A stretch of 64,000 bases of DNA from Euborellia annulipes (lineage: Eukaryota > Arthropoda > Insecta > Dermaptera > Anisolabididae), in assembly GCA_023213315.1 (NCBI GenBank), contig JAKCPI010015529.1, forward strand, positions 78,799-142,798, given 5' to 3'. Shown piece by piece: positions 5,832 to 62,767 of this stretch. The first letter of the stretch is position 1. Each line of letters starts with the position of its first letter. The notes below the pieces were generated by a model, which worked only from the letters and a program-made list of their open reading frames with translations, ran no database searches and was not told the DNA's origin. The position numbers and the translations under genes were made by a program.

Positions 5832-6447
5832 GTATATACACAATAAATAAGCTGTTATCACTTTTTAAAAATAAGAAATAGATTATGCTTTTAACTTAGA
5901 ACAAAATTACAATAGATATTGAAGATATCTCAGTAATTTTATGTAGATATTTTTTTATCACTCAAAAGTGAATTAATTACGTACTTTTTTAACAAACAAA
6001 TAATAGATTAGTATTTAAAATCACCATTTTTTAATTCTAAAATTTATTATCTAGTCAAAGAATTTAGGCCAGATTCTTGCTGGCATCCCTGGGCACGGCA
6101 TCTTCCATTTCCCTTTTTCACTTTCATGGCACTTAAAAAAAAAATCTTAATAAATATAACTTTAAAAAAAAAATTCTTAAACTCTTGCTGATAGTCACAG
6201 TCGAAAGAAAGTGATTCTCATTACTAAACTAGATTAAATTGTTATTTTTTAATATTGTCGAATTATTTGAGATTAATCCATATTTACACCAAGACGCGTT
6301 TGGTGTGGACGAGGCTGAGAATTTCCAAATTATATCAATAGTAATAACTATGTATTTTGAATGGTAAACAATTCAAACTCTGAATCCAAGAAAAAAAAAT
6401 TTTTCTCTGTTATATTCCTTCCTACCGCAATTTTTTCTTAATCATTT

Positions 6448-6489
6448 GCTAACGTTTCGGCTCGGGTTTGAACCATCTTCGGAGCTACA
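6448..6489 (-). ncRNA. Hammerhead-like core, left arm
   Basis: On the minus strand CCGAAGA, then U, then a stem II GG...CC hairpin, then CGAAACGUUAGC. The GCU before the core can pair with AGC after it as a short stem I. The first core position pair departs from CUG. Confidence 0.45.
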
Positions 6490-6546
6490 AACATGCAAAA
6501 ATAATAAAAACATAAGATATTTTGTTTTTATTATTTTTCCATGTTT

Positions 6547-6588
6547 GTAGCTCGGAAGATGGTTCAAACCCTAGCTGAAACGTTAGCA
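6547..6588 (+). ncRNA. Hammerhead-like core, right arm (decayed)
   Basis: Partner of the left-arm motif: CGGAAGAUGG ... CUGAAACGUUAGC. Core bases are altered, so it is probably inactive. Confidence 0.4.
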
Positions 6589-6959
6589 AGTGATTAGGAA
6601 TTTTTATTAAATTAAATAAAATAAAATTTGGCTGCATTCTGCTTGTAAATTATTCCTTCTTATCTTTGGCATAATTCTACAGCTATAACAATATCTTCAA
6701 TTACTATTTGATCCCTCCCTGATTTCTGGTATTAATCCCATTTTCTCCCAGTGTTATCCTCACACAAGGAAAATAATCACTTTCAACATGTTAAATGCCG
6801 AATTACTTGAAATGAGAAGTTTTCGAAAAAAGTTTCATTAGAATCGCTTACATGTTAGAGGCATGCATAGTGTCTTGTGTCCCCTCCAGTATACAGTGTA
6901 TATATCAAGAGTTGCGGGAGCGACTCGATGCCGAGCAAGGAGACGAGTCGTCCCTAAGA

Positions 6960-6960
<1 letters not shown>

Positions 6961-6991
<31 letters not shown>

Positions 6992-7010
6992 GTAGTATAT
7001 ATATATATAT
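6961..7010. repeat. (TA)n microsatellite
   Basis: Alternating TA tract interrupted once by AGTAG. Confidence 0.9.
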
Positions 7011-7441
7011 GAAAATATAGGGACGTGAAAAAATTTTTTGAGAAACTTTTCTCTTTCTGGGCGAATATCTCTAAAAAGTTTTAAGATATCGAAGCCAAAT
7101 TTTTTTTTATAAAACCAGAAATAAATAAGGATTATTTTGAGCACAAAAGTTCTAGATTAGTTGATGTTAGATGTTTTTTGGTTTTGTTTTTCTGGTTGGT
7201 CGACTATCTTTCACTGGAATACCCTTGAAACGGACAGACAAGTCCATTGATGAGGCTTTTCTCTAGTAGCTCGTTAATATCAATAAATGGATTTAACTTG
7301 CCACTAACTGTTTTTGAAATAACTATCTCCCTTTTGAATTGAGGTTTTGAATTTCTAGTGAGATTTTTTCTCTTTGAACCTTAAATTAATCTTTTCTTCT
7401 CATTTTTGGTCCACTCCTTTTCTCTATTGATTTAGGAAAAT

Positions 7442-7646
7442 TTAAGGTCATTTTCCACTCGATCGTGCCGCTGTGATACGATGCCGTCGGCCGTAATCGC
7501 TCAAACGGACTTGCTATTTAAATAGCATTGGAGAGGCCGTTTCAATTTCCATTAAACTTGCTGAGCCGACTGCTCTTTAAATAGAAAGTCCCTATGAGCG
7601 ATTACAGCCGACGGCAGCGGCACCAGCTAGTGGAAATTGGCCTTTA
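7442..7646. mobile_element. MITE with GC-richer inverted ends
   Basis: About 55-bp imperfect inverted arms, TTAAGGTCATTTTCCACTCG on the left against TTAAAGGCCAATTTCCACTA reversed on the right. Both contain GCCGTCGG(C/T) and end in AATCGCTC. Non-coding. Confidence 0.7.
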
Positions 7647-9412
7647 ACAGTATAAAAACGTTATGCAAAAATTTTGATCTGATATTCTTTGTAAGTGACC
7701 AAATAATGATACTCGATTAACCATCGATTGTTTCCTGTTTCTCATTTCTTTTTTTTTTTTTAGATGATCGTAGAATATATAGTACAAGTTATTATAATTA
7801 AACTACTTATTTATGCAGAGAGAGGGGGCCACTTACGAGCCAACATAGAAGTCAGGAGAGAGGAAAAAATGAGTCATTGATGCTGAACTTTGAGTGAATA
7901 TAAAAATTAAATTATAAAAAATAAATTAAACTTTTGAATCAAAATAATCATTTCCACCCTTTTTTCAAATGCCAGAGCTTGGAAGATTTTTTTATTAATG
8001 AGAAGCACTTTCTTAGACAGTCGTTTTAACTAAAAATAAAATTTTAAATTTAGAATAAATATTAAACTAATAATAATCTGTGTCCACGCCTTTTTTTTAT
8101 ACATTAAGACCTCGATTAGTATGATTAATAAATGTTTCTTACAACTCTACAATGTATTCTACTTATATTAAACAACCACAATTGACATTAACTCCTACTA
8201 GCAAACATCCATTGCCAGATGTTAATTCAAATTAGTACTAATCGAGTGCTCGTATATGCATTAATCAAAAGCCCAAATTTTTCACTAAATAAGAGTTGTG
8301 CGAAAAAAATATCCTGCAAATCCATTATTTATATATTTCATAATATAGATATTTTTTATATATATTTTTAAAAATTGATTATAAATAAATTGAAAAAAAA
8401 ATTATTAATTCATCATTAATAAGTCGAAAAGTAAAAAAAAACAGTTTATAATAATATAAAATAAACATTATCACTTATGTATATTATGTACATGTAGCTA
8501 TAATGAAAATATAATTATTTACATTGGTGTTCCAAGAGCTATCTGCAACAATTTGAAACAATCGGAGGAATACGCAAACGTATCCACTGACGGAAGGAGA
8601 TTCCTCTTGGAACAAATCTATATATTGTTCATAAATAAATAATTAATTTCAATTAATTTATTGCGAAATTTATTATGAATTCTGATTAATTATTTATTTA
8701 TTTTATTTATATTTAGTGAAATATAAAAAAATCCACCTAAGAGGTTTTTGCTCTTTTTAGGCATTTAAATGTAAATAAATAAAGAAAATAATAAATATAA
8801 AATTAAACTTTAATATCTGCATTTTATTGGAATCTTACTTTGATTCAAATTAAATATCCATATTTTCCGAATTTTCTCTGATTGTAAATAGAAATTTTAA
8901 AAATCTGGTACTAACCGCATATAATACAACTTTCTTTTACTTTCTATAACTTATATAATCGAAAGTTGATGATGATATGTTGTCCCAGTATTTTTTATGA
9001 TTTCTTACCTGTATATATGTTAATATATATAGAGAGAAAGAATTTGATTCATATATTATTCCCTCTTTTGATATAAAAAGTTGAGATTTTGCAAAGAGCT
9101 CTAGAATATCACGCATGAATATTTTAGCACTTAGGCCACACCAAATTGGGCCCTCTGTGCCTCTGGGGTGAGATCTTTTCCCACTTTCCTACAGGAGACT
9201 TCGGCACTTTTTAGAATTATTTGCGGCAAGCTGGTGTTAAGACTTCGGACTCTGTAATCAACCGCTTATCCACTTGTCTCCTCGAAGCGAACATCTTAAA
9301 ATCATAATCAAATTTTGCAAAAATAATATCAGATATGATGAATTCAGTCCGATACTCGAATCAGTCAATCCAAATCAAAGCACATTTTTTGTTGTTAATT
9401 ATTACGTATAAT
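7647..9412. other. Intergenic, small palindromes only
   Basis: AT-rich. Two small inverted-repeat units: 8104-8257 (ends AAGACCTCGATTAGTA and TACTAATCGAGTGCT) and 8528-8614 (GTTCCAAGAG against CTCTTGGAAC). A stretch at 9115-9300 is more balanced in GC but has no recognisable ORF or Pol III boxes. Confidence 0.45.
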
Positions 9413-10077: not shown

Positions 10078-10655
10078 TAGAGGTCATATTTTTTCCATCG
10101 CCTTTGAACTTTGAGAATTTTCAAGATTTTCCTAAAACTTCTTCCCTTTGTTTTCGTCCACAAGGGACTAAATTAATTTCAAATTACAATAAAACTAGAA
10201 ATTTATTATTTAGAATCTTTTATTGCTTAAAATTACCTCAAATAATACATATTTAATAGAACGAATAGGGATAGATTAAATTGTTTCATATGTCAAAGTT
10301 ACTCAGCATATTTCTTTTTCATTTCATATTTATTTGTCAATCGTATTTTTCAGTTCGATTATATAAAATTATATTTAACAAATATGTGAGTAGTTTAGTG
10401 TTTAGCCAAATTTGAATTGAGGTATTCATGAATATCAATACTTATTCAAATGAATAGGTCTCAAAAATTATTTAAATTATTAAAATTATAAACAAGGTGT
10501 CCGAGTTATCAAAAGAAATTGTAAAGTGCTTCAAGGCTGTATTTCTTTTACTTTGAAGAATTTAAAGTGGCTGTTGTATTTAAACAGTAGATAGGAAAAG
10601 GAGAATGCAGCCAGGTATTGAGTCTCCACGAAATTAAACTCTCTGTTCAGGAAAT

Positions 10656-10952
10656 GTGGGTCAAACAGGGTGTAATATTAAACAAAGGATGGCGGGTCAT
10701 CGAAGTAACATAAAATGCAAAAAAACATGCACTGCGCTTTGCATGCATTCGTTAGAAAACAATCACAAATTCGACATCGATAATCCAAAAATTCTCATGC
10801 AGGTGAATAATACATCGAAACGTTTGTTTGCTGAGAAATGCTTTATCAAGGCTTTGGGGGAGAGAGCAATTAATTTCCAGACTGACTGTGTTGGACTCAG
10901 CAATTTTTATATTTCATTTCTCGATGGCCTGGGAGACACGTTGTGTGTGTGA
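10656..10952 (+). pseudogene. Penelope-like GIY-YIG endonuclease fragment
   Basis: The open frame begins VGQTGCNIKQRMAGHRS, the second half of a GIY-YIG motif ((Y/V)GQTGR...H). It continues through HSLENNHKFDIDNPKIL and RLFAEKCFIKA to INFQTDCVGLS, the standard order at the C-terminus of Penelope-like reverse transcriptases. The reverse transcriptase and the first half of the endonuclease are missing because the inverted arm begins immediately upstream, and there is no credible ATG. A remnant, not a host gene. Confidence 0.8.
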
Positions 10953-11467
10953 ATAAGAAATTGAGGCAATAATTAACGATAGTAAAAATTTTTACTTCTA
11001 AATTAAATAAAATATGAAAGAATTTAAATAATTTTATATTTTTTCATAAATATTACTATTAAATGTGCCCAATGGGTCAATGCATTCACATTGGCTTATT
11101 ATCTATAGGATCTGCTTGATTTGATCGATTAATATGTAAACAAAAGGTTTCGGCATCCCATCTCAGTGTCACCGACCCCACTAAGAGGTCATTGCTTAAC
11201 ACATCGAATATAAATATTTAATGTGAATGAATTTATTTCATTAATCAAAACAACTTTGTATCTCTGACTTGGCGCTCTGTATATATTACTGATAAGCATT
11301 GCATTGTATTTTTGTACAAACAATTAATGTATAATAATACAGACTTTATGACAACTCCACTATTGACTCAATGCTTTGCTATTTGAGTTCATACTGTATG
11401 TATATATTGTTTGTAAACATATATAAATGAATTATTTTACTAACTGTACGATGCTTTCAGCTCAACT

Positions 11468-11514
11468 ATTGGACTGAGGATGGTTTTATCTCATTAAAGC
11501 CGAAACTGTTTCCT
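11468..11514 (+). ncRNA. Hammerhead-like core at Penelope-like 3' end
   Basis: GGA-CUGAGGA-U-stem II (GGUUUUA/UAAAGCC)-GAAAC, followed by UGUUUCC. The stem II strands pair over 7 bp with a G-U pair. A GGA/UCC stem I is possible. The retroelement context supports the hammerhead reading. Confidence 0.5.
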
Positions 11515-11729
11515 GAACAGAGAGTTTAATTTCGTGGAGACTCAATACCTGGCTGCATTCTCCTTTTCCTATCTACTGTTTCTTTTACTTTTTCATATTA
11601 TTAATTCTTAAACTTGACAGCGACTTTTTAAAGACTTTTTTTTGCCAAAAACAGACTTTTTACTGACTATTTGACTTTTAAGGCGACTTTTTTCCGAAAA
11701 TAAGAGACTTTCCGCCCTCTACTTATAAT

Positions 11730-12298: not shown

Positions 12299-15200
12299 AT
12301 GAAACCAAAAAAATTTAAATTGCCATATTCACTTTTGGATAAGTAAGTATACATTTCATTTAGATAGTTTAAGAATAAATATAAGAAAGATTAATTTTCA
12401 CATATATTCATCTCTTTTTCAGTGAAATTACTCATATGAACAAGAAAGTCGTAGTAGTATCAATTTTTGGGAAATCTCGTTTTAATTCATCAAGTTATAA
12501 AACTTGGTGTTTAGATGCCATCCAAGGATATCCTGTCTTAAAATCCTCAATTTTTGAAGATAGCGATGTCGATCCAGAAATTCTGGTAATTGACGTTTAA
12601 TGATTTGTTGAGAATAAGAGAAAAGTATTAAATAATAGGCAGCCATCGAAGTAAATAAAAATGTATTGAGTACACTATAAGAATAAATGACAATTTTTAT
12701 TTACCCCATTGGCTGCCTATGCTTTATATTTATTTTTATTCCCTTAAACAATAGGGAACCCAGAATGGTTTGGAGATATTTTATAATTTTCATAGGTTTT
12801 AATAAAGAACTGAACAACTAATGGATATTTCTTTAATGCAAGATCGAAAACCCTTTTTTAATATAAGAAATATACATAGCTGAACAACTCTTTATTAAAA
12901 CCTTCGACAAAAAGTCAATCATATATATTCAGAACTCGCCACCAAAATGAACGATTAGTTTAGATAAAATTTTATTTATCTAAATGGGAAAATCATAAAA
13001 AACTTTTACAAGTTAATAGGGACACACTTTTAGAATAAATTTATTCTCCTCTATCTATTTTTTCGAACCTTTGCTTTAATAAGTGCCCAGACACATGTCT
13101 CGTTGGGACGTTCGGTCTTTATTTGTTTTTCACTAGATCATTAATATTCCACAATTGTTTTGGAGAAAAACAAGAAAAAGATAGAGGCAAAAATTAAAAA
13201 GAAGCCTTCTAAATCTGATAGATTGATTCGTCTACAATAAAATTATTTATAATTTTCACTATACTGTCTTTTTTTGGAAAATAATGAAATCGACTGTTTC
13301 ATGCTTAGATGCATGACTTTTACACCCATAAACACAAAGTAGATACACATTGCTTTTATTTTTATAAGGAGAAAATTTCATATTTGTGAATGAATTAGTG
13401 TATGTATGTATTATTTATTAATCTAACAATATATATTTTTTTAATTATCGGTTATATTTTAATAAAAATAGAGGTGCAATATTTAATCATACCTAGCATG
13501 CATGACGGTGGAGAATATAAGGGAACAATTATGAAAATGGCTCTAGCCGGTCAGAAGATTATTTGATTAATTAATGTAGAAAGTGGCTGTGGGATGATTA
13601 AATCGGCCGAAAAGTTTTGCGAAAAAGGAGTTTAATTTAATAGAAGCTCCCTTTTTTTGGAATGGGTGCATAAGGTCCGAAGACCTATAATGACCAATAG
13701 TCACATGCAGCCAGGAAGAAAATAAAAACAAAGGAGAAGCATAAAGGGGAAACTCAACTGCGGGAACTGAGAAGATGCCTGTTGAGGTTAGACTTGAAAG
13801 TCTGAAGATTGTAGGTTTTGGGTAAGATAGACGCAGGGAGCTTGTTCCAATCACGGGAGGTCATGGGAACAATGGAAGAATGAAATTGGATTTGTTCTGT
13901 TAGTAGATCTGAACAGCATAGGGATGCTGGGACGATGCCTCTCTTGTGTTCGGTGAATATGTTGCATTGGGTGGGATAATTGATTTTAATTCGGCAGAGC
14001 ATTGACCATGGTAATACCTGTAGAAGAGAGATAGTGCAGACACGCTTCTTCTATGATCTAGTGACTGTAGGGATGCAGTAAGGGTAGAATCACCTATCAG
14101 TCTAATTGCAGCCTCTGTATGGCTTCCAAGGAGGAGAGAGCGTCTTTCGACGCCCCTCGCCAAAGGTCGGAACCATATTCAAGACACGGCCGAATTTGGG
14201 CTTTATAGAGGATTAGGAGTTGTTGGGAGGAAAAGTAACTTCGTTTTGAATAGGAAACCCAATTTCCTTGCGGTAGATTTAACCACAGAAGAGATGTGGT
14301 TGCTCCAGGAAGATCAGATGTAACTGTCACTCCCAGAACATAAAATGAATCTTTGAACTCGAGACTATTATTGCTTAAATAAGGGGAGGGCAAATCCTAT
14401 TTTTTTGTCTAGAAATTAAACAACCCAGCTAGCAGAGACCCGTCAAAATGACGTCCGAAACTGGTCATAGACTGACCAAAAATGACGTTATGTTTGACGA
14501 CAATTAAATTATTTATAAGAAAGAATAAAAAACATAGCAGACACAACCACCCCCGTAGGAGAGGGTGAAAACCGCCCCCAAAAGAGAAAAAATTCGTAAA
14601 AAATAAACTAAAAGTTGTGTCACCCTGGATTTTTGTCTAGAAATAGTTTAAGGGATGAGGAATAAAAAAAACATCATTTGAAAATTTTTTTTTTAAAATT
14701 TTTCAAATTTTTTTTTAAATTTTTTTTTTTTAAATTTTCCAAATAATCTTCTGACCGGCTAGAGCCATTTTCATAATTGTTCCCTTATATTCTCCACCGT
14801 CATGCATGCTAGGTATGATTAAATATTGCACCTCTATTTTTATTAAATATAACCGATAATTAAAAAAATATATATATATATTTATTATTTATTAATTGTA
14901 AAATATATCTTTTTCATAAATAAATAAAAAAAAAATTCAAGAGTGAAATCGACGGATTTTATGACAATAAAAAAAGAATAATATATTTGCATCTTCGAGG
15001 AGTTTTTGACGTTCATACTTTGACGAAAAAATATAACTCAATAACATCGGATCTTGAAACACAGGTATTATTCATTTTATATTCTAATTCTATTGTTTTA
15101 AGAAGAAGTAGGATTTTTATCAATGACTTTTAATCACAAGGCTTTATTTTATTTGGAATGAGAGTTTTTCTTGTTCACAAGTTACAAGTTAACTTTTTAT

Positions 15201-18200
15201 ACAGGGTGGCCCACGGTAAATTGCTGATTTGGAAATGAAAAAAAAAAGTAAAAATAATGAACACTTAGAAACATACATTTTTATTTTTCTCATATTGAAC
15301 AATAATGGAAGTTTCTAATTACATGGTTTTAAACAGAGTATCTGGAAAATGTTTACCTCCACAGTCCATACACTGCTGCAGTCGTTTTCTGAAATTCTCA
15401 TGCCCTCTTTCAAGCATGTCCTGTGGTATTCTTGCAATTTCAGCCTCATTATTGTTCTGTAGGTCTTCCAGGGTCTTGGGATGGCTGCAATACACCTTCG
15501 ACTTCAAAAAGACTACATGGGTTAAGTTTCGAGGCAAACGTTTCCTGGAAGGCCTGTCTCTCAGAAGGGGGATCTCAACTGGCCCGCACGCTCACCGGAC
15601 TTAATGCGAATTTTTTCTCTGGGGTTACCTGAAGTTGAAGGTGTATTGCAACCATTCCAAGACCCTAGAAGACCTACAGAACAATAATGAGGCTGAAATT
15701 GCAAGAATGCCAGAAGACATGTTTGAAATAGTGCATGAGAGTTTCAGAAAACGAATGCAGCAGTGAATGGATTGTGGAGGTAAACATTAGCCAGACACAG
15801 TGTTTAAAACCATGTAATTAGAAACTTCCATTATTGTCCAGTATGAGAAAAAAATAAAAATGTATGTTTCTAAGTGTTCATTATTTTTTTATTTCATTCC
15901 TAAATCATCAATTTACCTTGGGCCACCCCGTATCTTTCATTATTCATGTAATTATAAATTTATTATTTTACATTTTTTTTCAGGGATTTCTTCAAGTGTG
16001 GTCTCAGTTAAAAAGCAAATATGCCAAAGCTCTTTTATATTTGTTTTTAATATCTCATATATTAATAGTAGTGCATCCAAATCACACATTTGATTTAGGT
16101 TTTATTCAACTCTTCCGGGCTCTGGATCAAATAAGGTATTGAATTTTCTTATTCTAAGATCCAACTAAAATACAACTGGCCTAAAGAAAGAAATAAACTC
16201 CATTTTGGAATGAGAAGTACTAATTGGGGAAGTGCTAATCGAAGAGGGGATCATTTTTTCAGGAGAATTAATTCTTGCTCCCTCTCATGTCTATGGAGGG
16301 GGTAATTAATTATTAAAGAGGATTGGTAGCAATGAGAGATCACTTTAATGACAAAAGATACAATTCACTCTTTCTATTTTTGGCGATAGGATTAATCTAT
16401 TTGAACGTGAAATAATTTTGCTCATAAGTCTAAAAAACTTATTAACAATTTGATATATTGATTATAATAAATTGATACATTTTTTTTAATTTTTCAGGCA
16501 ACAAAGTCAACCCGCTATTTCGAAGATTATCGGAAATATCGAAGGAGTCTCAAAAGAGTGGGTCATTAATGGTCGATTTTGTGCACCTCGACTGTTATTT
16601 CTCTTTGAAAATACCTCATCTTTAAATAAAGTAACATCAATTAAAAAATTAGCTCATTCCATGGAAGATCAAATTTATCACATCCTTCGAAAAAGTCGCA
16701 TTGTCACCAACAATAGGTATTATTATTATTTTTTTTTTTTAAGAAAATACCTAGACATAATTATAAAAAAAACAAAAAAAACATGTGAAACTATGTTATC
16801 AAGTCAAATTTCATACAATTTGCCGAATAGACAGTTTTGCATGGTTAATAAATTAACTACTAAACTTAATAAATATTTAGATTTGAACTTCAAATAAAAG
16901 CGCACTTCGACTGAGTCGAAATTTACCTTATTTCATATATATATTTAATAGAAAAGAAATCCCCCACATTCTTGTTAACTATTTTTTCATTTGTTCATAG
17001 TTATAATTGTCTTTTTGGAATACCGCCTAATCAAGAATTCGTCTTCGTTCGATCTCAAACTGAACAGAGCGAGTTGGATTTATCTGCTTATTTAGTTAAT
17101 TCCTTAATACGTTTTTGTCATGATCCAAATACCCCGGCTCTGGATTCTCAACAAACACCAGGTAAACCCAAATTAATTGAATGAAATTTTATAGTTTTTT
17201 ATATTATTAATTTCCTCTTCTACCTTCTTTTTATTAATGAATGCTTATTTCTACTATTATTTTTCAGATGAGAGTTTTGAAATCTTCTTAATGAAACACG
17301 TTGATGAAGCATTTAACAAAGGTTTCGATGATAATGTGGGACGTCATATTCCAATTGTCCATTTTGAGGTAATAATTTTGCTAAAAAAAATATATATATA
17401 TATTTGTAATTGTTTTTAATTTTTTTAATAATTGATTTCAGCTTCCCAAAGCCACAACATGGCTTCAAGTAACTAATAAACTTTTTGAAATAATTCTTCA
17501 AAAGAAATTTGAGCCACTACCACATCCTTCACCAACTCCAAAACAACCTGAAGAAGAAGTTGCCAGAGAAGCCAAGCAACAACCAGAAGAAAGAGAATTA
17601 GAGGATGATGAAGATGAGGAAGATGATGAAGAAGAAGAAGTGGAGAAAGCATCTCCTTCTGAAACCATAGTACGACAGATGAAAGTTTTAGAGAAAGTTC
17701 TTGATACGGATGTTGCATTTAGTGAAGCACGATGTTCAAAAATTCTTCCATTAGCGACTGCTAGATATATGGAAAATTTGCCATCTCATTATACACGGGA
17801 GCATCATAACACAAGAGTAATTATTTGATTCAAATTTAATATTTTTGTTTTCTTCTTTTAAGGCTCTTCAGGAGGCAACCTGTTCGCATGTTTTTGCCGA
17901 TAAGATGGCATTAGGGGTCTTAAAAATTTAACCAAAAAGTCCTACTATTACGAAAATTTGCCAACAGATGGCAGGATAGTAGGGCTATATTTAATCCCAT
18001 GTATTATTTGATTGATTTTCGTTGATCTTTTAATAAAGTATGGTTTATAAATATTATTATATCATTATATATTATTCCAAATCAATTCCAAATAAATATA
18101 GGCTTATAAGTGATCTGATAATACCGGCTGTTAGACTAGCCTGCCATCTTTTGCAAGAGTGTTGACTATTTGGCCGTTAATTTTTAAACAAATACGAAAT

Positions 18201-21200
18201 TTATTTTTTACTTTGTCACTATTTTATTTAATTATTATAGGTTGGATATTCATGATTTTTACATTTTTAGATGTGGATTTAGATTTAGATAAAAAAAATT
18301 ACAATTTTTATATTGAAGGAACCGAAGAATAAAACCATCATTTATAATAGAGTTATTTTTTGCATTTTCTATAAATATATATAAAAAAAAATATTTTTTA
18401 ATTAATCATAATTTAAAAAAAAAGCATTCTATTATGTAAAATGCTCACGAATTTAAATTATTTAAAAAAAAAACCGCATAAAAAATACTTTAAAATGCCT
18501 CAATAGTTTCGGACTAAAGATTTAATGTGCCTTCCTGAAGCTCCTTAATACCCAAAAATTATATAATTATATACTAATATTTTTACTAATAAGAGTAATT
18601 AATTAACGAGTTATTTTTTTATATTTGTTTATTGAATTAAAATATTTTTTTTTTCAGCTCGCTCATGCTCTATGTGTATTAGCAGTAAATGCCAGAGGGC
18701 CTCTTCTTGAAAAATACAGTGAACAACTTCAAAAGGATTGTGAAAAAGTCTGGGTCCCTGATAGACAAGTCTGCGAAGTTTTGAGTCTCACTGGAAATCC
18801 TTGTACAAAACCTATTCATGCTATTCCTGCAACCGAAGATAGGTGAATCAATCATCTCTCTTTTTTATTCGATTAAATAAATAAGTTGAAATGTTTCGCG
18901 TTTATTAATATAACGCCATCATCTGTTTAGTTAGAACAATAAAATCTTCATTATGAATTTAGAGTTTTAAAGATTAAATTATTAGCGGAATAGAGTACTT
19001 GCTTTATATCCTAAAGGTAAGAAATTCGTTTCCCGCCCTGAGCGGCGACAAAAATTTAAACGAATTATTTTATATGTTCGTTTATCAAGAAAGGGTTACC
19101 AAAATCTTTTCTTTAATAGTTTATTGGGCCGACCTTTCGGCCTCTTTCGAGTCCGAATTAGATAATAATCTAATTAATTGAACCCCTTAGGATGGCATCT
19201 ATCGAGACCGAAATGTCGGCTCAATAAACTACTAATAAAACAATTTTGGCTTCCAGTCCCTGCATCTGCGACACTTCCTTAATATAACTTGAAAACCAAA
19301 ACAACAATATACAATTATATTGGTTACCAATTAATTTGAATAAATAAGAACGGGGTCTAAATCGGCTCGGATGGCGAGAAAGACCTTAAAAATAATAAAT
19401 AAAAAAGTTTTTATTTGTCTTTTTCTGGGAACCTCCGGGCTAAAGTGAACGAATTAGTTATAGGTTTTCTCAAAAGATGCACAAATTCAGTTTCATTTAT
19501 TAATTTTCAGGGATGCAGGAACATCAGAACATTGTAGCGGGATTCGTTACATTTCTACCTGTGATTGTGGCCGACGACAGGCCCCACGAGAGGATCCTTA
19601 TACAGCTCGAGCAGCCAATTATGAATTCTACCAGCAATTGGGCCAAGAATGCGGATGCGCTAAACTTGAAAAACATCATTTTCCGGTATTTCAACCAACA
19701 ACTCAACAATATAGAGCTGCACAATTATTTCCTTCTAAATCACTTCGACGCGACAGTGGCGCAAAAGACCTAGTAAAGGATATACAAACTAAGGAACAGG
19801 GCACTACTCCTCATACTCAAGCATTTAGTCTTGGTAAGAATTGTTAGAAATGCCTATAAGATGCTAATTAGGGCGCACCCAAATGGATTCTTACTAAAAA
19901 CATTTCTTAAAAATATCAAATCTAATTATTCATGAGAAGGATGAATAAATAAAATTCGAGATACTTTTCAGGCCAATTTATTTGAAGGAGTCGTTTTGGT
20001 TCCAAAACGTTGACCCATAGCGGAAGGAGTTAATCCAAATAAATTGGCCTGAAAATCATCTCCGGATTTTATTTATTCATCCTAATATCCACCAGGCTGC
20101 CCCCTATCTTCATCATCTAATTATTCAATTAATTTATCAAAAAAAGAAATTCATTATTCGAATATAAAAATTAGAATCAGTAAAAGGAATATATTTATTT
20201 TTTCAAGCTGGATTTGCTTCTGGAGCCTCCCTTGGAAGCAGTGATGTCCTTCCTGAAGATTCCGCTGGTCACAAAGTTGTTTCCCAAACTGATTCTAGCT
20301 CTCAACACCCTATCGTCATTGAAGTTCCTTCTGAACAAAATGATAGTTCTAAAGGTAAATTGTTAATTCTTAGAATAATAATATACATATAATAATAAAT
20401 ATTTTTATTTATTTTTTAGAAAAAGGCTTGGTTCGTCAGCCATCGACAACCGAATATCTTCCCAGTATGCCTCATACCCTTTCTCCTGTTGGGCTTCTTC
20501 CTCGATATCCTTGCTGGTCTTTGGTTTGTCTCGGTCCTTCATCTCTTTATAGTCATAATGTCGGGCTTCATGAACAATGGCATGAAGGATTTCTTCCTGG
20601 TTGTGCTCATTTGCTTCCTTGGGATCTAACAGTGCGACTAGAAGGTCGTCCTGCCTGGATCCGACATAATCCTCGAAAAAACCAACAATCAACAGGACAA
20701 CAATCTTGTAATTCGGATAGAAATAAAGGTATTGTTTCCTTACCTTTATATTAAAAGATAAGCATATTACTAGAGCTGGATCTTTATGCAAAATCATGTT
20801 TGTATAAAAGCTGAATACGTTCCTGAAACTCATGAGTATTCGATTCGAAATAACCCTCTTTGTTCAGAGCATATGTGCGCATATTTTGACTTTTTTTGAA
20901 GACATTCCATGCACATTGCACAATTTGTAACCAAAACAATCTTATTTTTCATGCATATTTTAACATTTTTTTTAAAGAAAAAAGGATATTTTGGATATTT
21001 TTGTGTAGTTGCTTATAACAATTAAATTTTTTTTGGTATCCAAATGGCTTAAATAAAATCATTGGACTACCTGGGATCCGAAACCGCGACCCTTGGTATA
21101 GAAGGCAGGCGCGCTACCAACTACACGAAACTCGAGGGCACAATTAATAATTATTTTTAATATTTTCAAACTTTCGCGCTCTACAGTGGGGAAATGTAAA

Positions 21201-22789: not shown

Positions 22790-25642
22790 ATGGAGGGTAA
22801 AATATGTTGCAAATCTCTTGTAAATTTTCCAATTAAAAAACAATATGACATTCTTCGAAGACTAAAATCGGAACCTATAATTAGTAAAACAACTTTAAGA
22901 GATCTCATCCCTTATATAAATAAATTTCCGCCATTTGTCGAGTATAAATTTGTCCTTGATCCTCATATCGTTCTTTGGAAATACTTTCCTCTGCCTGAAA
23001 CCAAACAGCTGATCAAAAATCCTGATTTTGTAGAAATACTACGTAAATATAATAATTATTTAGTAATTTATTGATATTTCTATTATTTTTTTTATTTTTT
23101 AGGAAATAATATAAATGTTTCATTGATTATTGATTCAATATTCGGGGATATTATAAAATATTTGGTATTTTATGCAAGGTAGAGAATTTTGTTTTATCAA
23201 TTAAATAATAAAATTATTTTTCTCGAATGTGGAAGTGGCAGTGATTGATATATTTGAACAATGGCAGGAGGTGGCAGCCTTGAAGGAGTGTCTCTTAATC
23301 AATGAAACTCGCAAAAAATTCGCGACGTTTCGGTTACAAGTTATTAACAAAAACTAAATCAACATATGAATAAATATATTAATGTACATTTACATATGAG
23401 AACTGTAAGTAAAAAAATTAAAAATAACAACCATTGTAATAATTTTAATTGTTAATAATATTAATTTGGAATGAAATATATTGTAGCCCGATAGCCTGAT
23501 GATGGTAGAATAAATTTGGACCGAAACGTCGCGAATCTTTTGCGAGCTTCATTGATTTAGAGATACCCCTTCTTGCCTGCCATCTCCTGCCATTGTTCAA
23601 AAATAAAATTATTTTATTAAAGCTCAGATTTTCAGGCATTTTCAAGGAAAAAATTCTAACGGGGCTCGGGAGGCTCAAAGCCCCCCCTCCGAAATGGTTT
23701 CATTTTTAAAATTATAAAATTTTTGCATGTTATAGTTATTATTAGAGGGGCGTTACCCCAACATTGTTCACTCTTTAAATGAATGTCATTGAACAAAATT
23801 ATAATAACCCCCCCCCCCCCCCCCCTAAATAAAAAATGCTTGACTCTGGGCTTCTAATTAAAATTTTAAATCAAAAATATGCTTTGTGTTATAAACTCTT
23901 CACTTTTTTATTTTATTTTATTGTACTAGAATTTTTTTCAACACTGCTATTTCTTCAATTTCTTTTTATTGTGAATGAAAATGGACCCCATTAAGTACAG
24001 TATTCCCAGTTATTAATCGTTAGAACTTCGGTTCATTTTCAGGACTACCAACTAATTTTCCCCTAATTAATTTATATATATATATATATCACGTTGGGAG
24101 AAAATTATACAATTTAATATTTATTAATTCAAATATCCGACAAAAAAAAAAGGAAAAGACGCCATTTTTTTGTCGGCTATTTTAATTAATGAATATTAAA
24201 TTGTATGAATTTTCTTCACGGCTCCCAACGTTATATAATATAATTATTTATTTATTAAATGCATATTTGAGAGGTCTTCTCAATTAGTCCATCTAAAGTG
24301 CGCATGGTCGAGAGAGAAATTAGTGAATTCAGATTTGGGTCTATTTCTCTTGATGACTAAAAGATCAGTTTGTGTGAATTCAAATAACCGAATGCCGTGC
24401 TGTGTTCGAGTGGTAGATCCGTAGACTCCCGACGACACCCTATCTTTTGTCGGCTATTTGAATTAATGAATATTAAACTCAAAAATATTATTTCCTTATA
24501 ATAAATATATCAATAATTTTTAAATAAGCTGCATTAAATAATTTTATATTTCTAGAAAGAACCATTTGTCTTACAAAAAGACATCCGTCCTTCTGGCTTT
24601 GTTTACTTTATCCCACTATTATTACCTAAGTGATTCTTGGATAACACCTAAACAAGTCTATTCATTCTTTAAGGAAACAATCCTCAGGCATTCAATAGAG
24701 GTATGGAAATATTACTTTAAATTTTTCCTTTTTTTTGAGTGAAAATATCATCTGGCATATAAAATTATTTTTATTAACTTTTAATAATGAAAAAATGACT
24801 TCCAATCCAATAATTATATTCAAGAGGGTTAAAAACATAAAAGCAACAAATCAAGAAAATCAAAGAGTCTGGCTTCGAAATTTTAAATACATCCTAATTA
24901 CAAAGATATGGCTGTTTCACTTAATATATGAATAGCGGAGGGCAGTCAGGAAAACAAAATCAATTTTCATCAAATTTTTTAATGTGATTGTAGACGTTTC
25001 GGACGCCAGTCGCGTCCTTCCTCACCTTAGGTTAAAGTTTTATTGTAATTATTTATGTATTGATCATAGGATCCTGAGGAAGGATGCGACTGGCGTCCGA
25101 AAGGTTAACAATCAATTTAAAAAATCTGATAAAAATTGATTTTGTTTTTCTGACTGCCATCCGCTATCCATATATGGATCCTGTTACGCATTAGTGTGTC
25201 AAGCTGGCCTACCGAGATTTGAGAAAATTAACATCAAAGTTTTTTGTTTTCATTGGATTATATATAATTTTTTTTGTCAATTGTGCAAGTAACATTAAAT
25301 ATAAATTTTTTTAGGACATATTTCATAAAAAATACTAATTAAAGCATTTGAAACAATATTCCGTGCTTAACTCAATTTTTAATTTTTTGGCGCTTGACAC
25401 ACTAATGAATAACAGGGTGCATATATCCTAATTACTTTGTTATATTATTACAGAGACCTCCAATTTCTATGGAAATTTTTGAACCTAAAGAATGTTATGA
25501 AATATTAAAATTATTTTGTAACATTTACATAAAACAAATACCTCTAATTCAAATGAATTGCAAGCCTAATTATGAAATACATATACCATTTGAAAATAAG
25601 AACTTTAAACTAATTCAAGGGGACGAACAGAAAAATTCATAA
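22790..25642 (+). CDS. Small four-exon gene, CFAP119/CCDC189-like (tentative)
   Basis: Exons 22790-23042, 23103-23178, 24556-24700 and 25454-25642 join in phase with GT/AG borders to give 220 residues. The start is the first in-frame ATG (MEGKICCKS); the first donor is GTAAAT at 23043, since reading through would break the next exon. Features: HIVLWKYFPLPETKQL near residues 60-80, SLIIDSIFGDIIKYLVFYAR, a hydrophobic LLALFTLSHYYYL, and FFKETILRHSIERPPISMEI followed by a helix ending NIYIKQIPLIQM. This order (Leu-Trp start, RHS-x-RPP-x-S, then a helix before a short C-terminus) resembles the cilium/flagella-associated CFAP119/CCDC189 family, but I recognise it by pattern only. An AATAAA lies 14 bases after the stop (25657). 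No signal peptide. Confidence 0.6.
23251..23602. mobile_element. Inverted-repeat element with hammerhead-like core
   Basis: Arms run from TTGAACAATGGCAGGAGG to its inverse ATCTCCTGCCATTGTTCAA. The left arm has GACGTTTCGG (minus core remnant) and the right arm a full core. Intron 2 of the CFAP119-like gene. Confidence 0.7.
23487..23537 (+). ncRNA. Hammerhead-like core with canonical CUGAUGA
   Basis: CUGAUGA-U-GGU...ACC-GAA-ACGU-C. The core heptamer is identical to the canonical hammerhead, with one extra U before stem II and no separate stem III. Stem I potential is only GC/GC here. Confidence 0.5.
23808..23825. repeat. Poly-C run
   Basis: About 18 consecutive C within an intron. Confidence 0.9.
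24091..24232. mobile_element. Inverted-repeat element
   Basis: Arms CGTTGGGAGAAAATTATAC and its inverse GTATGAATTTTCTTCACGGC, continuing into AATTTAATATTTATTAATTC. A related single arm (GTCGGCTATTTGAATTAATG) recurs at 24454-24476. Confidence 0.6.
24991..25023 (-). ncRNA. Hammerhead-like core, left arm
   Basis: Minus strand GUGAGGA-A-GGACGC/GCGUCC-GAA-ACGU-C. Stem II is a perfect 6-bp GC-rich hairpin. Confidence 0.5.
25071..25105 (+). ncRNA. Hammerhead-like core, right arm
   Basis: CCUGAGGA-A-GGAUGC/GGCGUCC-GAA-AGGU-U. The core heptamer is intact while the ACGU tetranucleotide is mutated to AGGU. Confidence 0.5.
25172..25427 (+). mobile_element. MITE family M1, copy a
   Basis: Ends ATGGATCCTGTTACGCATTA and inverse TAATGAATAACAGGGTGCAT, with GTGTGTCAAGC next to the left end. 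The interior TTTTGTTTTCATTGGATTAT is shared with 29873-30133 and, inverted, 60900-61052. Confidence 0.75.
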
Positions 25643-26228: not shown

Positions 26229-26273
26229 GAAGAAAATGCAGCGAGGATTTTTTCTTTAAAAATATATATTTTT

Positions 26274-26319: not shown

Positions 26320-26360
26320 GTCATTATATACATATATTTGGTATGTATATAATGACAACT

Positions 26361-53249: not shown

Positions 53250-53418
53250 CAAAATCCTATGGCTCAGAGGTAGAGCATTAACTTCTGATGTCAAAGGTCA
53301 AGGGTTCGCATCTCATCTCTGGCAATAAATTTATTTCAATTGAATTGGATACCAGGCAATTGAAATAAATGGGAACGGTTCTAAATGGCCTCAGATGCCA
53401 ATAAAGATCTTTAACAAT
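53250..53418 (+). mobile_element. tRNA-headed SINE with common tail
   Basis: CTATGGCTCAGAGGTAGAGC (A box) and AAGGGTTCGCATCTC (B box), then the tail AATAAATGGGAACGGTTCTA then AATGGCCTCAGATGCC shared with 9660, 19340 and 36410. This is the only copy that shows head and tail together. Confidence 0.7.
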
Positions 53419-57840: not shown

Positions 57841-57959
57841 AAGTAATTTTAATGTTGGCGATGATCTTCGAAACTGTTTAAGAGCCATCGTCCTTGAAGC
57901 TGTATTTTCATAAAACCGACTTGGCCAAAACATATTCCCTATAAACATTCAAATTCCTC

Positions 57960-58008
57960 AAACCCCCTGAAGAGGGCAGAATAAAATTTCACTGAAACGT
58001 CTCGATTG
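57960..58008 (+). ncRNA. Degenerate hammerhead-like core
   Basis: CCCCCUGAAGAGGGCAGAAUAAAAUUUCACUGAAACGUCUCG: CUGAAGA and GAAACGUC are intact but stem II is poor. Confidence 0.35.
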
Positions 58009-58114
58009 GAAATTGGTGTTTCATTGGTTTAAAACTCTTTGGCTGCATCCTCGCAACTCTAACATTATCATATCTACAGCAACAAACTCACCCAACCTAA
58101 AGTAATTTTAACAA

Positions 58115-58411
58115 AAGGAGCATGTGCAGCCAAAAATAAAAAGCCTGCGATTTTTTACAATTCAAAGAGACGTTTCGTGTGTATTTTATTGACCCATCTT
58201 CAGTCTTTCAAAATTTTCAAGTCGCACTTAATAAGTATGATGGGCCAACTCGCTTGCACATATGATACATAAATTTTCATGTATTACCCAAACGACCAAC
58301 TCCGGGACTTTAACAATTTTGAAAGACTGAATATCAATAGAATTAACCTGAAAAGTCTCAATGAATTGTAAAAAATCGGAGGCTTTTTATTTTTGGCTGC
58401 ACATGCTCCTT
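58115..58411. mobile_element. Inverted-repeat element with hammerhead-like core
   Basis: Arms AAGGAGCATGTGCAGCCAAA and inverse TTTGGCTGCACATGCTCCTT continue into AATAAAAAGCCTGCGATTTT and onward. The arms are complementary over about 100 bp. Confidence 0.78.
58164..58209 (-). ncRNA. Hammerhead-like core with 5-bp stem I
   Basis: Minus strand AAAGA-CUGAAGA-U-GGGUC...-CGAA-ACGU-C-UCUUU. Stem I pairs AAAGA with UCUUU. Core heptamer and GAA are intact; stem II is weak in this copy. Confidence 0.5.
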
Positions 58412-59159
58412 CTCCTGTTCATAGACAAACAGCCACTGATTTCAGTAATTTTATGAAATAATGGTAACTAAATAGACAACAAATAACATTTTTTTTTTTT
58501 CAAAACATCTCTTCAAATACCGATTTTAAATGCTAGTAAAAAGTTCAAGAAAAAAAACTGTGTCTGATAATGTTTCCGACCTAAAAAAATTCCCATTATT
58601 AATAAGCCCAATTTCATATTCTTGTCACCTGTGCTAGAAATAGATATTAATTCAGATTAGAAAATATTTAAGAAAAAAAAAAAACTAGGATTTCTTAATG
58701 AAGGTGTCAACTTCCTAAGTAGGAGACCTTGAAAGGAGATTTGTCTGTCATGTGTGGAACGGTTTCTTACTTCATCACAAATATTAAATGGCAATTGTAT
58801 ATTTCCGATCCCGCCCTTGGTGTTTGGGTGTTGGGTGGGCATCTCCTTTCGTTCCTTTATCTTATTCTAATAATAATATATCATCGTTAGGTACAGGATA
58901 TACGCATTTTATCATTCTTTCCTTTTAAATATTTATTAAATTCCATTCAAAAAAACAGATAAGCAATAATTAAATTTTAGTCAGAATGAGAAAAAAAAAA
59001 ATTTAGAAAAAGTTCCAATTTTCTGTCAAAAATGATATGTTAAAATTAACATTTATCTTATTGTGTAAACATATCAAAAGGGTGTTTTTAAGATTTCTTT
59101 GAGTTCATTCACCTCGACTAGAATTTGTTCCCGATTTCCTTGAAGTACCATAAGGACCT
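58412..59159. other. No gene recognised
   Basis: AT-rich with a balanced patch at 58690-58850. The minus frame there has no recognised family. Confidence 0.35.
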
Positions 59160-60545
59160 CATCGGGTGAAAATAAGGTTAACCTAACTAGGACAATCCTG
59201 GCGGGTTCCTCATTAGGATCGCATCAGGATGACCCTATTGAAAATAAATTGATTTTCCATCGGGATTTCCTGATTATGTCCATGTAGGGAACCATTCAGG
59301 ATTGCCTTACTGAAAAGAAAACTATTTTTAATCGGGTTATCCTGAGGAGTTCCACACTAGGATCGCATCAGGATGACCCTATTGAAAATAAATTGATTTT
59401 CCATCGGGATTTCCTGATTATGTCCATGTAGGGAACCATTCAGGATTGCCTTACTGAAAAGAAAACTATTTTTAATCGGGTTATCCTGAGGAGTTCCACA
59501 CTAGGATCGCATCAGGATGACCCTATTGAAAATAAATTGATTTTCCATCGGGATTTCCTGATTATGTCCATGTAGGGAACCATTCAGGATTGCCTTACTG
59601 AAAAGAAAACTATTTTTAATCGGGTTATCCTGAGGAGTTCCACACTAGGATCGCATCAGGATGACCCTATTGAAAATAAATTGATTTTCCATCGGGATTT
59701 CCTGATTATGTCCATGTAGGGAACCATTCAGGATTGCCTTACTGAAAAGAAAACTATTTTTAATCGGGTTATCCTGAGGAGTTCCACACTAGGATCGCAT
59801 CAGGATGACCCTATTGAAAATAAATTGATTTTCCATCGGGATTTCCTGATTATGTCCATGTAGGGAACCATTCAGGATTGCCTTACTGAAAAGAAAACTA
59901 TTTTTAATCGGGTTATCCTGAGGAGTTCCACACTAGGATCGCATCAGGATGACCCTATTGAAATAAAATCCATTTTTCATCAGGTTTTCCAGATCATGTC
60001 CACGTAGGGAGCTTTTAAGGTTTGCCTTACTGGAAAAAAGACTATTTCCCATCGGGTTATCCATACGAGATCCTCAGCAGGATCTCATCAGGATAAACCT
60101 ATTAACAAATATTCATTTTTCGTCGTGTTTTCCTGATCATACTCATGCAAGAAGCCCCTAAGGATCACCTTACTGTAAAAAAAATATTTCTCATCGGGTT
60201 CCCCAGACGAGTTCCATAGTAAGATGGCATCAGGTTGACCCAATTAAAAAAAAAATTGTATTTTTCATCGGGATTTCCTGATTATGTCCATGCAGGGAAC
60301 CTTTCAGAATTGCCTTATTGAAAAGAAAACTATTTTTAATCAGGTTATCCTGACGAGTTCCACATTAGGATCGCACCAGGATAGCACTAATGAAAATAAA
60401 TTCATTTTCCATCAGGTTATCCTGATCAGGTCCACTTAGGGAACTTTCAAGGTTTGCCTTACTGGAAAAAAAGACTATTTATTTTTATCGGGTTCTCTAG
60501 ACGACTTCCATAGTTGGATGGCATCAGGATGGCCCTATTAAAAAA
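59160..60545 (+). repeat. 144-bp satellite (dimer of two 72-bp halves)
   Basis: GCATCAGGATGACCC recurs at 59221, 59365, 59509, 59653, 59797 and 59941, exactly 144 bp apart, with near-identical units between. Further units up to about 60540 are diverged. Each unit consists of two alignable 72-bp halves sharing CAGGAT, TGAAA, ATCGGG and CCTGA at the same offsets. Non-coding. Confidence 0.95.
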
Positions 60546-60568
60546 ATTGATAATTCTTAAAGTATTAA

Positions 60569-60753
60569 CTAGTGATGAGAAGTGGCTGTAGACTTTAAAT
60601 TGGGTATAGGAAACTTTGCAGTCAAGGAATTGAATAAAAAACTTTTATATATATAAAAAACTTTTATTTAATTATTAACCGTCGACGTTTCGGTCGCAAA
60701 TCAAGACCTTCCTCAGGACGATGTGATAATCACAAGTTTCCTATACCCAATTT
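60569..60753 (-). mobile_element. 185-bp hammerhead-bearing element inserted at satellite edge
   Basis: AAAGTATTAA occurs at 60559-60568 and 60754-60763 as a possible 10-bp target duplication. Internal inverted arms ACTTTAAATTGGGTATAGGA and inverse. It abuts the last diverged 144-bp unit. Confidence 0.6.
60675..60722 (-). ncRNA. Hammerhead-like core, best-preserved copy
   Basis: Minus strand AUCGUC-CUGAGGA-A-GGUC...GACC-GAA-ACGU-C-GACGGU. Stem I AUCGUC/GACGGU pairs over 6 positions (one G-U), stem II is GGUC/GACC, the core CUGANGA and GAA are intact, and C17 follows the self-complementary ACGU. Confidence 0.65.
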
Positions 60754-60899
60754 AAAGTATTAAATTTGAATTTCATCAAATTTTCTAAAAATTCACTAAA
60801 ACAATAGATTATCTAAAAGGCTTTTATTTATTTTTTTTTTCATTGTATAATAAAATAATTTAATAATTATATTTATTTATTTATATTATATTTAATTTT

Positions 60900-61052
60900 T
60901 TTTAATTTATATTTAATGTTACTTGCACAATTGACAAGAAAATTATATATAATCTAATCAAAACAATGTAAATCAGAAAAACTTTAATGTTAATTTTCTC
61001 AAATCTCGGTACCTGGCGCTTGACACACTAATGCGTAACAGGGTCCATATAT
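60900..61052 (-). mobile_element. MITE family M1, copy c (partial, inverted)
   Basis: Reverse of the 25172 and 29873 copies: TTGCACAATTGACAAGAAAA, CTTTAATGTTAATTTTCTCA, then GCTTGACACACTAATGCGTA and ACAGGGTCCATAT at the end. The far end is degraded. Confidence 0.65.
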
Positions 61053-61289
61053 GAAATATATAGAGAGAAATTTATAAAATTATTTGCTTATAACGCACAA
61101 AAAAAAATTATAATTTTAAAAATTAAAATTTATCTCATATTCTCTTTATTTTTAAATGTATATTAAATTTCCTCTTTCAAAAAGAAAAAGAAAATGTTTG
61201 TCTAAAAAAAAATATACTGCTTGAATTAATATATTCGCATAAAATTTGTGTTTTGTCTTATATATAAAAGTGAATTTGTATAAAAATTA

Positions 61290-61501
61290 AAGTTTGATGA
61301 GTGCTATATGCAAACCCCGCCTAAAAGGAAATCAACCAATTAGAAACTTAGAACGTGACGTGTTTCATCCCCACCAACCCCATAATGCTTTGCGGAAAAA
61401 GACGATCGCGCTGAACTGGGAGCAAGGAGCAATGGGCGCCATTATATCTCTGGATTCTCTTCGCGACACTCAAAATAAAATACTGTTTTTATTTGTTAGA
61501 T
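61290..61501 (+). promoter_or_regulatory. Likely promoter/5' UTR of the downstream gene
   Basis: Balanced GC with ACGTGACGTG, CATAATGCTTTGC and GCAATGGGCGCCATTAT just before the start codon. A short overlapping upstream frame (61297-61512) starts at another ATG and could be an upstream ORF. Confidence 0.35.
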
Positions 61502-62227
61502 ATGGACTATAAATATAGAATCGTAGTATTTAAAGATGATATGAGTGAAGATTCGAAAAAGTTAATAGACATTATACCAATATCATGGTTAATTAACAAA
61601 GAATCAGAGCCAAATCAAATGTATTATTTCTTTATGCCACCACCTTATTCTACATCGAGAATAAACAAGTTGAAAAGAATGGTAATAAGTAATAGCAAGC
61701 CAGATATGTCTTGGCCAACATATGCTATTGAAATAAAAGGAAGAGCCAGTAAGTATATTTAATTATTTTTATTATATTTTACTATTTATACAACTAAGGA
61801 CAAAATTTTCCATTACTTATATAGAAACATATCAAGAAGCTGAAGACAAGGTTATGTTACTTCATAAAAAAGACAATGTTTATACAAGTGACTCTGGGAA
61901 GACGGCAGCAACGAATGCTGAAGAAGATAGAAAAGCTTTGAAATTCAGGTCTACTCCTGTCGATTCAAAATCTCTAAAAAGAAAATTAAAATCATCGGTA
62001 GTCAATTTAAATGATGATCATCAAAAAAAACAATGTAATTTTTCAAAGTATTTAACTTAACCTATATAACAATTTTCACTTTGTTTGATTTTTTTTTTAT
62101 AGTTTGTCTTCCATCGACTAGTGAAGATAGTCTTTCATCAGATAATGATGTAAGAAATAAAAAAACGACTATTAAATTTAGTAATAAATCCAGTAAAGCT
62201 CCACAACCATTTCGGACCAATGATTAG
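61502..62227 (+). CDS. Repeat-associated conserved protein, N-terminal part, ends early at TAG
   Basis: Exons 61502-61748, 61825-62034 and 62103-62227 join in phase with GT/AG borders. The start MDYKYRIVVF is in good context. Features: DIIPISWL, PPPYSTSRINKLKRMV, DMSWPTYAIEIKGRAKTYQE and then a Lys/Ser/Asp-rich, disordered-looking segment (KRKLKSS, SEDSLSSDND). This resembles the N-terminus of a multicopy family in arthropods and Hydra (xxVIPxSWLxx...PPYxxxxRxxKxI...W..Y.V.V.G.A.SYxEAxxK), often with a C-terminal DUF4806. Recognition is by pattern only. The frame stops at TAG, but the exon appears to run 23 bases further to a consensus donor, GTAAGT at 62251. Either a truncated paralogue/pseudogene or a genuine short protein of 193 residues. 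Confidence 0.5.
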
Positions 62228-62648
62228 AAAATTCCTATCGAAGAAAAATTGTAAGTATATTTTTTACTTTCTCTTACCCTATATATGAAATATATAGAAA
62301 GTATTGTTTAATTTAGTATTATTTTTAACACTATTTAATTCTTAATTTGAAAATATTGAAAAAGTTAACAATTGAATCTTTAAGTAAATTATAAAACTTT
62401 TTTTTAACTAATCAATAAAAATAATAAGAAGTATAAATTGCAATTTAGTTAACATTAAAATCTTTAATTCATTTATCGAAAAAAATTATATATTTTACTA
62501 TAAATTTAAACTTATAAATCATAATATAGCTTAAAATTTAAATTATTTAAATATTTCATACAATGTATTAAAATTCAATGACATTAATTTTTAGGACTTG
62601 TAGATGCAGGCAGCCAGCAAATAATAAAAAAAAAAAAACTATTTTAAT

Positions 62649-62685
62649 TATCATCGAGGTTTCGGATTCCATCTTCAGGACGATA
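62649..62685 (-). ncRNA. Hammerhead-like core with 7-bp stem I
   Basis: Minus strand UAUCGUC-CUGAAGA-U-GGAAUCC-GAA-ACCU-C-GAUGAUA. Stem I pairs over 7 positions with one G-U. Stem II is minimal (GGAAUCC). ACGU is mutated to ACCU. Confidence 0.55.
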
Positions 62686-62767
62686 GACTGTTACTGTTGC
62701 TTAGATTGAGGCATTTGGGTTCATACAAAAATAAATGAATAAATTTGCATATACTATTAGATGTATA

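Follow-up and report, generated by a model that had tools for sequence, protein, structure and literature searches.

Within 64,000 nucleotides of the genome of the dermapteran insect Euborellia annulipes (GenBank assembly GCA_023213315.1, contig JAKCPI010015529.1, positions 78,799 to 142,798), a small hammerhead-like RNA motif recurs many times, usually in pairs that face outward. The question raised by this locus is what kind of element scatters such motifs, and whether the outward pairs serve a ribozyme or record an insertion. The whole 64-kb stretch is referred to below as the window, and element scores, arms and repeats all refer to it. Our answer, with a rough probability of 0.87, is that the elements are the terminal pseudo-long terminal repeats (pLTRs) of old, mostly 5'-truncated Penelope-like elements (PLEs), each pLTR carrying a minimal type I hammerhead.

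The window was searched for the two halves of the motif, allowing up to one mismatch in each and a distance of 0–22 nt between them. The two-half hammerhead motif was found at 13 sites and in none of 100 dinucleotide shuffles, by which a chance origin was ruled out; the reversed window sequence contained no site with both halves at the same tolerance. The full pattern without mismatch occurred twice, at 23496–23530 (+) and 60684–60716 (−). The dispersed copies, put at about 15 in the original prediction, are real and far above chance, although not all of the listed sites were supported.

A covariance model (R1) was trained on 12 copies, namely ten of the 15 main sites of that prediction together with those at 19178 and 3993. 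It matched 14 sites at E < 1e-5, including all 12 on which it had been trained, and the scores of these 12 are favoured for that reason. Of the 15 main sites, 13 were scored by R1, 12 at E ≤ 9.7e-6 and the one at 25066 at E 0.074, but neither 40367, the arm that mirrors 40262 (E 3.9), nor 49974 (E 2.1) was upheld. Among the four sites considered weaker, 19183 was retained (E 8.4e-8), 32505 was not (E 3.4), and 36729 and 46310 were absent from the R1 matches up to E 10. A second model (R2), trained on six elements picked by the analyst with six held out, recovered five of the six held-out elements (E 5.2e-5 to 1.8e-3) and missed the one at 57959 (E 1.3). A good copy at 3993–4043 (−) had been overlooked in the original prediction, and 18882–18933 represented a marginal motif (E 0.35 in R1, 3.7 in R2).

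The elements that contain these copies are the following, in order of position.

E1, 3898–5505 (−): 12-nt direct repeat 3898–3909 / 5494–5505; tail 3910–3938; inverted arms 3939–4010 / 5421–5492; hammerhead 3993–4043 (−).
E7, 6435–6600 (no strand assigned): inverted pair, 91% complementary; hammerheads 6443–6490 (−) and 6545–6592 (+).
E2, 10542–11591 (+): 13-nt direct repeat; tail 10555–10581; inverted ends 10582–10654 / 11509–11581 (100%); hammerhead 11466–11517 (+).
Open reading frame (ORF) inside E2, 10638–10949 (+): GIY-YIG-like by eye, unconfirmed by any search.
E13, 19094–19330 (+): 9-nt direct repeat at both ends; hammerhead 19178–19225 (+) with broken core CUUAGGA.
E4, 23207–23615 (+): 14-nt direct repeat; tail 23221–23252; hammerhead 23488–23538 (+) with intact core; the left arm carries just the 3' half of the motif.
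E5, 24924–25175 (no strand assigned): inverted pair; hammerheads 24985–25033 (−) and 25066–25114 (+), both with core or ACGU changes.
E6, 26169–26487 (no strand assigned): 12-nt direct repeat; tail 26181–26204; hammerheads 26273–26320 (−), CCGAGGA, and 26360–26407 (+), CCGAAGA.
E9, 40166–40486 (−): 8–9-nt direct repeat; tail 40175–40212; degenerate right arm; hammerhead 40260–40310 (−) with broken core.
E10, 57959–58009 (+): single copy, intact core, no stem I, weak stem II; missed by R2.
E8, 58101–58453 (−): 10-nt direct repeat; tail 58412–58443; degenerate right arm; hammerhead 58161–58211 (−) with intact core.
E11, 60560–60763 (−): 9-nt direct repeat; tail 60571–60596; short inverted end; hammerhead 60676–60724 (−), the best preserved, with intact core, 6-bp stem I and 4-bp stem II.
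E12, 62648–62686 (−): single copy, 7-bp stem I, 2-bp stem II, ACCU instead of ACGU.

Pairing of the stems was evaluated on 13 rows, one arm per element with the better core chosen by hand; 11 rows came from the half-motif search, and the other two, E2 and E15, were picked out by eye. For comparison, the 5' and 3' strands were re-paired randomly among elements. Stem I reached 44 pairs in total, compared to a permuted mean of 12.2, with none of 20,000 permutations attaining this value. Stem II reached 45 pairs, compared to 33.3 (p = 1.5e-4), and its pairs 3–4, which the search pattern leaves unfixed, gave 16 versus 9.8 (p = 6e-4). When look-alikes were cut in two ways, each leaving nine rows, the corresponding values were 0/20,000 and 2.5e-4 for stem I, and p = 0.0025 and 0.001 for stem II.

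Consistent values were obtained from a 12-row alignment, in which 72.3% of cells were paired compared to 50.9% after shuffling (0/500), and pairing fell to 24–48% when the partner was slid. Cells changed on both sides numbered 35 versus 18.3 (0/500), and further pair types 28 versus 21.6 (4/500). In the covariation test put forward with the original prediction, carried out here within the window, pairing of stems I and II was kept by compensating changes across differing sequences, both in the 12–13 elements and in the sets of nine. At least five contiguous stem I pairs were present in only 5 of the 13 elements, exactly the five stem I families named beforehand, and three or fewer in the remaining eight. 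When four units were folded singly, both stems appeared in the 26274 and 60675 units, and the 26274 unit was the only one of the four to beat its shuffles (3/200). A minimal hammerhead RNA lacking stem III, with pairing of stems I and II maintained, is supported by these results.

The copies had been described as lying in otherwise unrelated sequence. This was mostly the case, except that the similarity between E1 and E8 extends well past the hammerhead (73% over 99 nt); resemblance within the hammerhead was seen for E6/E7, E1/E4/E10, E5/E11 and a few more.

Outward-facing inverted pairs, also predicted, were confirmed: eight pairs of pLTR-like arms were aligned head to head, and most copies lie in such arms. 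Four further features had not been recognized earlier, namely direct repeats in the flanks, a one-sided tail, an outer GGCTGCAT-like motif and the ORF at 10638–10949. Flank repeats were tested in eight elements, comprising seven of the aligned inverted pairs (without E7) and E11, and the longest shared repeats measured 12, 13, 13, 5, 11, 10, 8 and 9 nt. Repeats of at least 9 nt were present in 6/8 elements compared to 1/56 mismatched flank pairings, and repeats of at least 8 nt in 7/8 compared to 4/56; the mean over the 56 mismatched pairings was 5.8 nt.

An extra tail of 24–38 nt, located outside the inverted arm and before the direct repeat, was observed on one side only in all seven elements measured, with tail ends set by hand. 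It carries CAGCCAC in five of the seven, CTGCCAC in one and CAGGC in one, and on the opposite strand this motif corresponds to the GTGGCTGTTG-like motif. Four of the five GTGGCTGTTG-like sites in the window adjoin a scored element, the one at 13583 being the exception. A TTGGCTGCAT-like motif is common to the outer arms, with 7 of its 10 sites inside scored elements, and its longer form occurred five times compared to 0.27 in shuffles.

These surroundings also bear on the possibility that the elements are miniature inverted-repeat transposable elements (MITEs), the arms being terminal inverted repeats of DNA transposons and the motif a transposase binding site that never acts as RNA. Short foldback elements with near-symmetric arms would suit this explanation. 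However, DNA transposons produce a flanking repeat of fixed length, and those in the window vary from 8 to 14 nt. The tail is present on one side only, stems I and II pair across differing sequences, and the motif spells a hammerhead core, so that an origin as MITEs appears very unlikely.

The motif, the stem pairing across elements, the arms, the flanking repeats, the tail and the decay of the copies are all directly observed, and the tie to PLEs that had been suggested is the most likely one, since inverted arms, a one-sided tail and short flank repeats match published anatomy. In PMC3846280, Penelope pLTRs are described as inverted, one of the two optionally bearing a 31-bp tail, with target-site duplications (TSDs) of 8–10 bp and palindromic junctions, and copies without TSD are described as well. 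The Penelope/Poseidon type, including Pen2a of A. vaga and PAc of Anolis, likewise has inverted head-to-head pLTRs, one tail, a short TSD, palindromic junctions and 5' truncation (PMC3846280), and a hammerhead in the pLTR (PMC11167929). The outward pairs were considered unusual in the original prediction; they correspond instead to this published head-to-head arrangement. Because the anatomy matches published PLEs, the pairs are most likely a product of insertion and not an arrangement of ribozymes.

PLE proteins, strand cutting and ribozyme activity are what we infer for the history of the window elements. The PLE RNA would be bound by the element's own reverse transcriptase (RT)/GIY-YIG protein, and an AT-rich target would be cut on both strands, with the cuts about 9–14 bp apart. 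Each cut end would then prime reverse transcription at either of two start points, some 24–38 nt apart near the AC-rich tail, and the two complementary DNAs would meet head to head, leaving outward arms, a one-sided tail and a TSD. The ancestral pLTR hammerhead would have comprised stem I, CUGANGA, a single additional base, then stem II and GAA, the position of stem III being taken by the palindrome ACGU. To cleave, it would have required either two RNAs joined as an ACGU:ACGU dimer or the assistance of the PLE protein. Work by Cervera & de la Pena in 2014 and by Lunse et al. in 2017 reportedly dealt with minimal PLE hammerheads lacking helix III, which are thought to cleave as dimers.

For a PLE studied in PMC11167929, the protein cuts both strands at AT-rich sites and starts reverse transcription inside the RNA, and the tail is the interval between the two RT start sites. 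The hammerhead, located in the pLTR, was dispensable for insertion in vitro and cleaved only with protein present; no cleaved hammerhead ends were found there among public RNA reads. For such inverted copies, self-priming on an antisense template was favoured instead by Arkhipova et al. 2013. According to PMC7761336, thousands of dispersed minimal type I hammerheads without helix III occur in animal genomes, some of them in tandem in PLE pLTRs, with cleavage as dimers possible. As described there, they share with the window copies stem I, CUGANGA, stem II, GAA, the want of a proper stem III and their scattering in non-coding DNA. The window copies would add further members to the known hammerhead-bearing PLE ends, and the pattern of outward pairs had already been described.

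The ORF at 10638–10949 lies upstream of the E2 hammerhead on the same strand and, judged by eye, reads like the C-terminus of a Penelope-type GIY-YIG endonuclease, unconfirmed by search. Its residues follow the order VGQTG...R...H...E...N, as in GIY-YIG nucleases, with spacings of 49 (R–E) and 13 (E–N) residues compared to 48 and 15 in T4 I-TevI. R27, E75 and N90 of T4 I-TevI, which we take to be catalytic, were invariant or nearly so among 25 GIY-YIG proteins. The AlphaFold model of the ORF was too poor for use (mean predicted local distance difference test score 37.5), and nothing useful was obtained for it from the viral-contig scan, tblastn against phages or the protein database. A second ORF, at 20408–20863, gave nothing in the viral-contig scan.

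Several results weigh against the PLE interpretation. Pfam returned for the ORF at 10638–10949 only DUF5332, below cut-off (E 0.015), and no match was obtained in NCBIfam, PHROGs, PDB or the protein database. With hhalign, the ORF reached a probability of just 2.7% against the 25 GIY-YIG proteins, over 17 columns in the right register (0.0 for an unrelated control ORF). No PLE RT was recognized in the window by a crude six-frame motif scan, in which none of four YxDD-like strings looked RT-like by eye; an RT need not be present in truncated PLE copies. E5 has no flank repeat above 5 nt in the flank test, and E7, which was outside that test, none above 7 nt. The five GTGGCTGTTG-like sites exceed the shuffled mean of 1.0 (maximum 4), but the reversed sequence has seven, so that the count alone proves nothing and the placement is the evidence. 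The tail stem-loop UGGCUG/CAGCCA folds in only 3/6 elements, and the number of pairs with any both-side change gave no support (9 versus 8.6 shuffled, 290/500).

Unlike the Penelope/Poseidon type, nearly all of the window copies consist of short paired or solitary arms that hold no ORF, with no RT recognized and the GIY-YIG ORF unconfirmed. The 64 kb contain roughly a dozen copies, and most of these differ from one another outside the hammerhead. It is conceivable, if unlikely, that the short ORF-less arm pairs are more than truncations and make up non-autonomous PLE families in their own right, comparable to MITEs among DNA transposons, which would be mobilized in trans and shaped by selection for the pLTR ribozyme and the tail. 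The ends share little beyond the hammerhead, the outer GGCTGCAT-like motif and the tail, which may represent the minimal set of sequences for such insertion.

Retrozymes, small tandem elements that move via self-cleaved circular RNAs, offer another explanation of type I hammerheads in repeats. In animals, non-LTR retrozymes place type I hammerheads in small AT-rich repeats with TSDs above 4 bp, and PLE machinery is suspected as their helper (PMC7229834 and PMC7761336). In contrast to their direct tandem organization (PMC7229834), the window copies occur singly or in inverted orientation and have no stem III, and no direct tandem copies each with a hammerhead were found. The window contains two long tandem arrays, at 59205–60551 and 63479–64000, with units of 144 bp and 179 bp, respectively, and neither R1 nor R2 matched them. 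A retrozyme origin is accordingly regarded as highly improbable.

As for the state of the copies, CUGANGA and GAA were intact in 7 of 12 rows, the others showing one or two changes. The replacement of stem III by ACGU, originally regarded as general, was found in 8/12 rows, and CUGANGA, GAA and ACGU occurred together in 4/12. Of these four copies, only 60676–60724 has a stem I of at least five and a stem II of at least four pairs. Arms were compared in seven pairs over aligned positions only, with gaps dropped. Core positions differed between arms at 11/76 compared to 66/622 for other positions (p = 0.33); in this weak test no selection since insertion was visible. The copies are mostly decayed, and since their cores show no greater conservation between arms than other positions do, they are mostly fossils.

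For bench work, the 60675 unit is a better candidate than the 26274 unit, which had also been proposed and is a poor choice because C stands for the core U (CCGAGGA). When transcripts of two pairs, E5 and E6, were folded, each gave one long hairpin (−146.5 and −154.9 kcal/mol, respectively, with z near −24), which would be predicted to mask the hammerhead motif. An inverted pair yields no dimer in cis, since it contains one sense and one antisense motif and since E5 and E6 fold as one hairpin. The striking pattern would be explained by a known mechanism, and the tempting view of outward pairs as a ribozyme arrangement is corrected.

The same observations apply to the idea that the copies are retained working ribozymes, acting on host transcripts in trans as ACGU dimers or as sources of double-stranded RNA. 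The long E5 and E6 hairpins and the location of the E13 copy between two Smg8/9-like coding stretches could be cited in its favor. The core of that copy is broken, however; core and ACGU are intact in only 4/12 rows, and the core differs between arms like other positions in the weak test given above. Retention as working ribozymes thus seems most improbable. The Smg8/Smg9-like stretches are at 17436–17825 and 19464–19844 (PF10220, E 8.4e-12 and 5e-32), and the decayed E13 and the marginal motif 18882–18933 both sit between them.

Other features of the window were noted. At 13458–14847, inverted arms of 115 nt (97% alike, 1160 nt apart) enclose frames that by eye resemble the end of a non-LTR RT, two of which gave no match in Pfam; the GTGGCTGTTG-like site 13583 is located here. 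At 15199–15933, arms of 229 nt (90%) accompany frames that by eye resemble a mariner-type transposase, one of which gave no Pfam match. A tRNA-like match at 53260–53316 scored 27 bits versus an Rfam cut-off of 29, and no tRNA was found in the window by ARAGORN.

An extra A or U before stem II, said to be always present, was found in 12 of 13 rows, 57967 having G, although most rows had been found with a pattern favoring A or U there. When viral contigs were scanned, the extra A or U was present in 40 of the matching stretches (33 distinct) and absent from 63 (41 distinct). Full type I pairing (stem II of at least 4 pairs, stems I and III of at least 3 each and at least 8 together) was possible in 13/33 and 15/41 distinct stretches, respectively, as raw counts with no chance baseline. 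A form without stem III and with a stem I of at least 5 occurred in neither viral set. The extra base is not peculiar, because 13 of the 33 distinct viral matches can pair all three stems; its position between CUGANGA and stem II likely represents a frequent variant, which suggests that it is common in natural hammerheads. Section 8 of PMC3088659 discusses insertions elsewhere in the hammerhead core, not at this position.

The Rfam scan of the window yielded no hammerhead match at the gathering score, and none among 29 matches at E up to 10, the best of which were microRNA precursors at long hairpins. In control scans with Rfam 15, no hammerhead was returned at the gathering score for 12 viral loci carrying the extra base or for 12 lacking it, and relaxing the threshold to E 10 still produced no hammerhead match at the sites of six of the extra-base loci. 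The silence of Rfam on the window carries no weight, because the control loci were equally silent.

The extra-base loci able to pair all three stems (L001, L003, L020, L021, L022, L024, L025, L026, L027, L032, L034, L036 and L037) lie in contigs that are phage-like, and by eye some of the loci are followed by an ATG no more than about 70 nt away. The viral contig L102, which also holds a hammerhead-like site, contains two type-P5 twister ribozyme matches above the Rfam cut-off, at 7893–7950 and 8383–8442.

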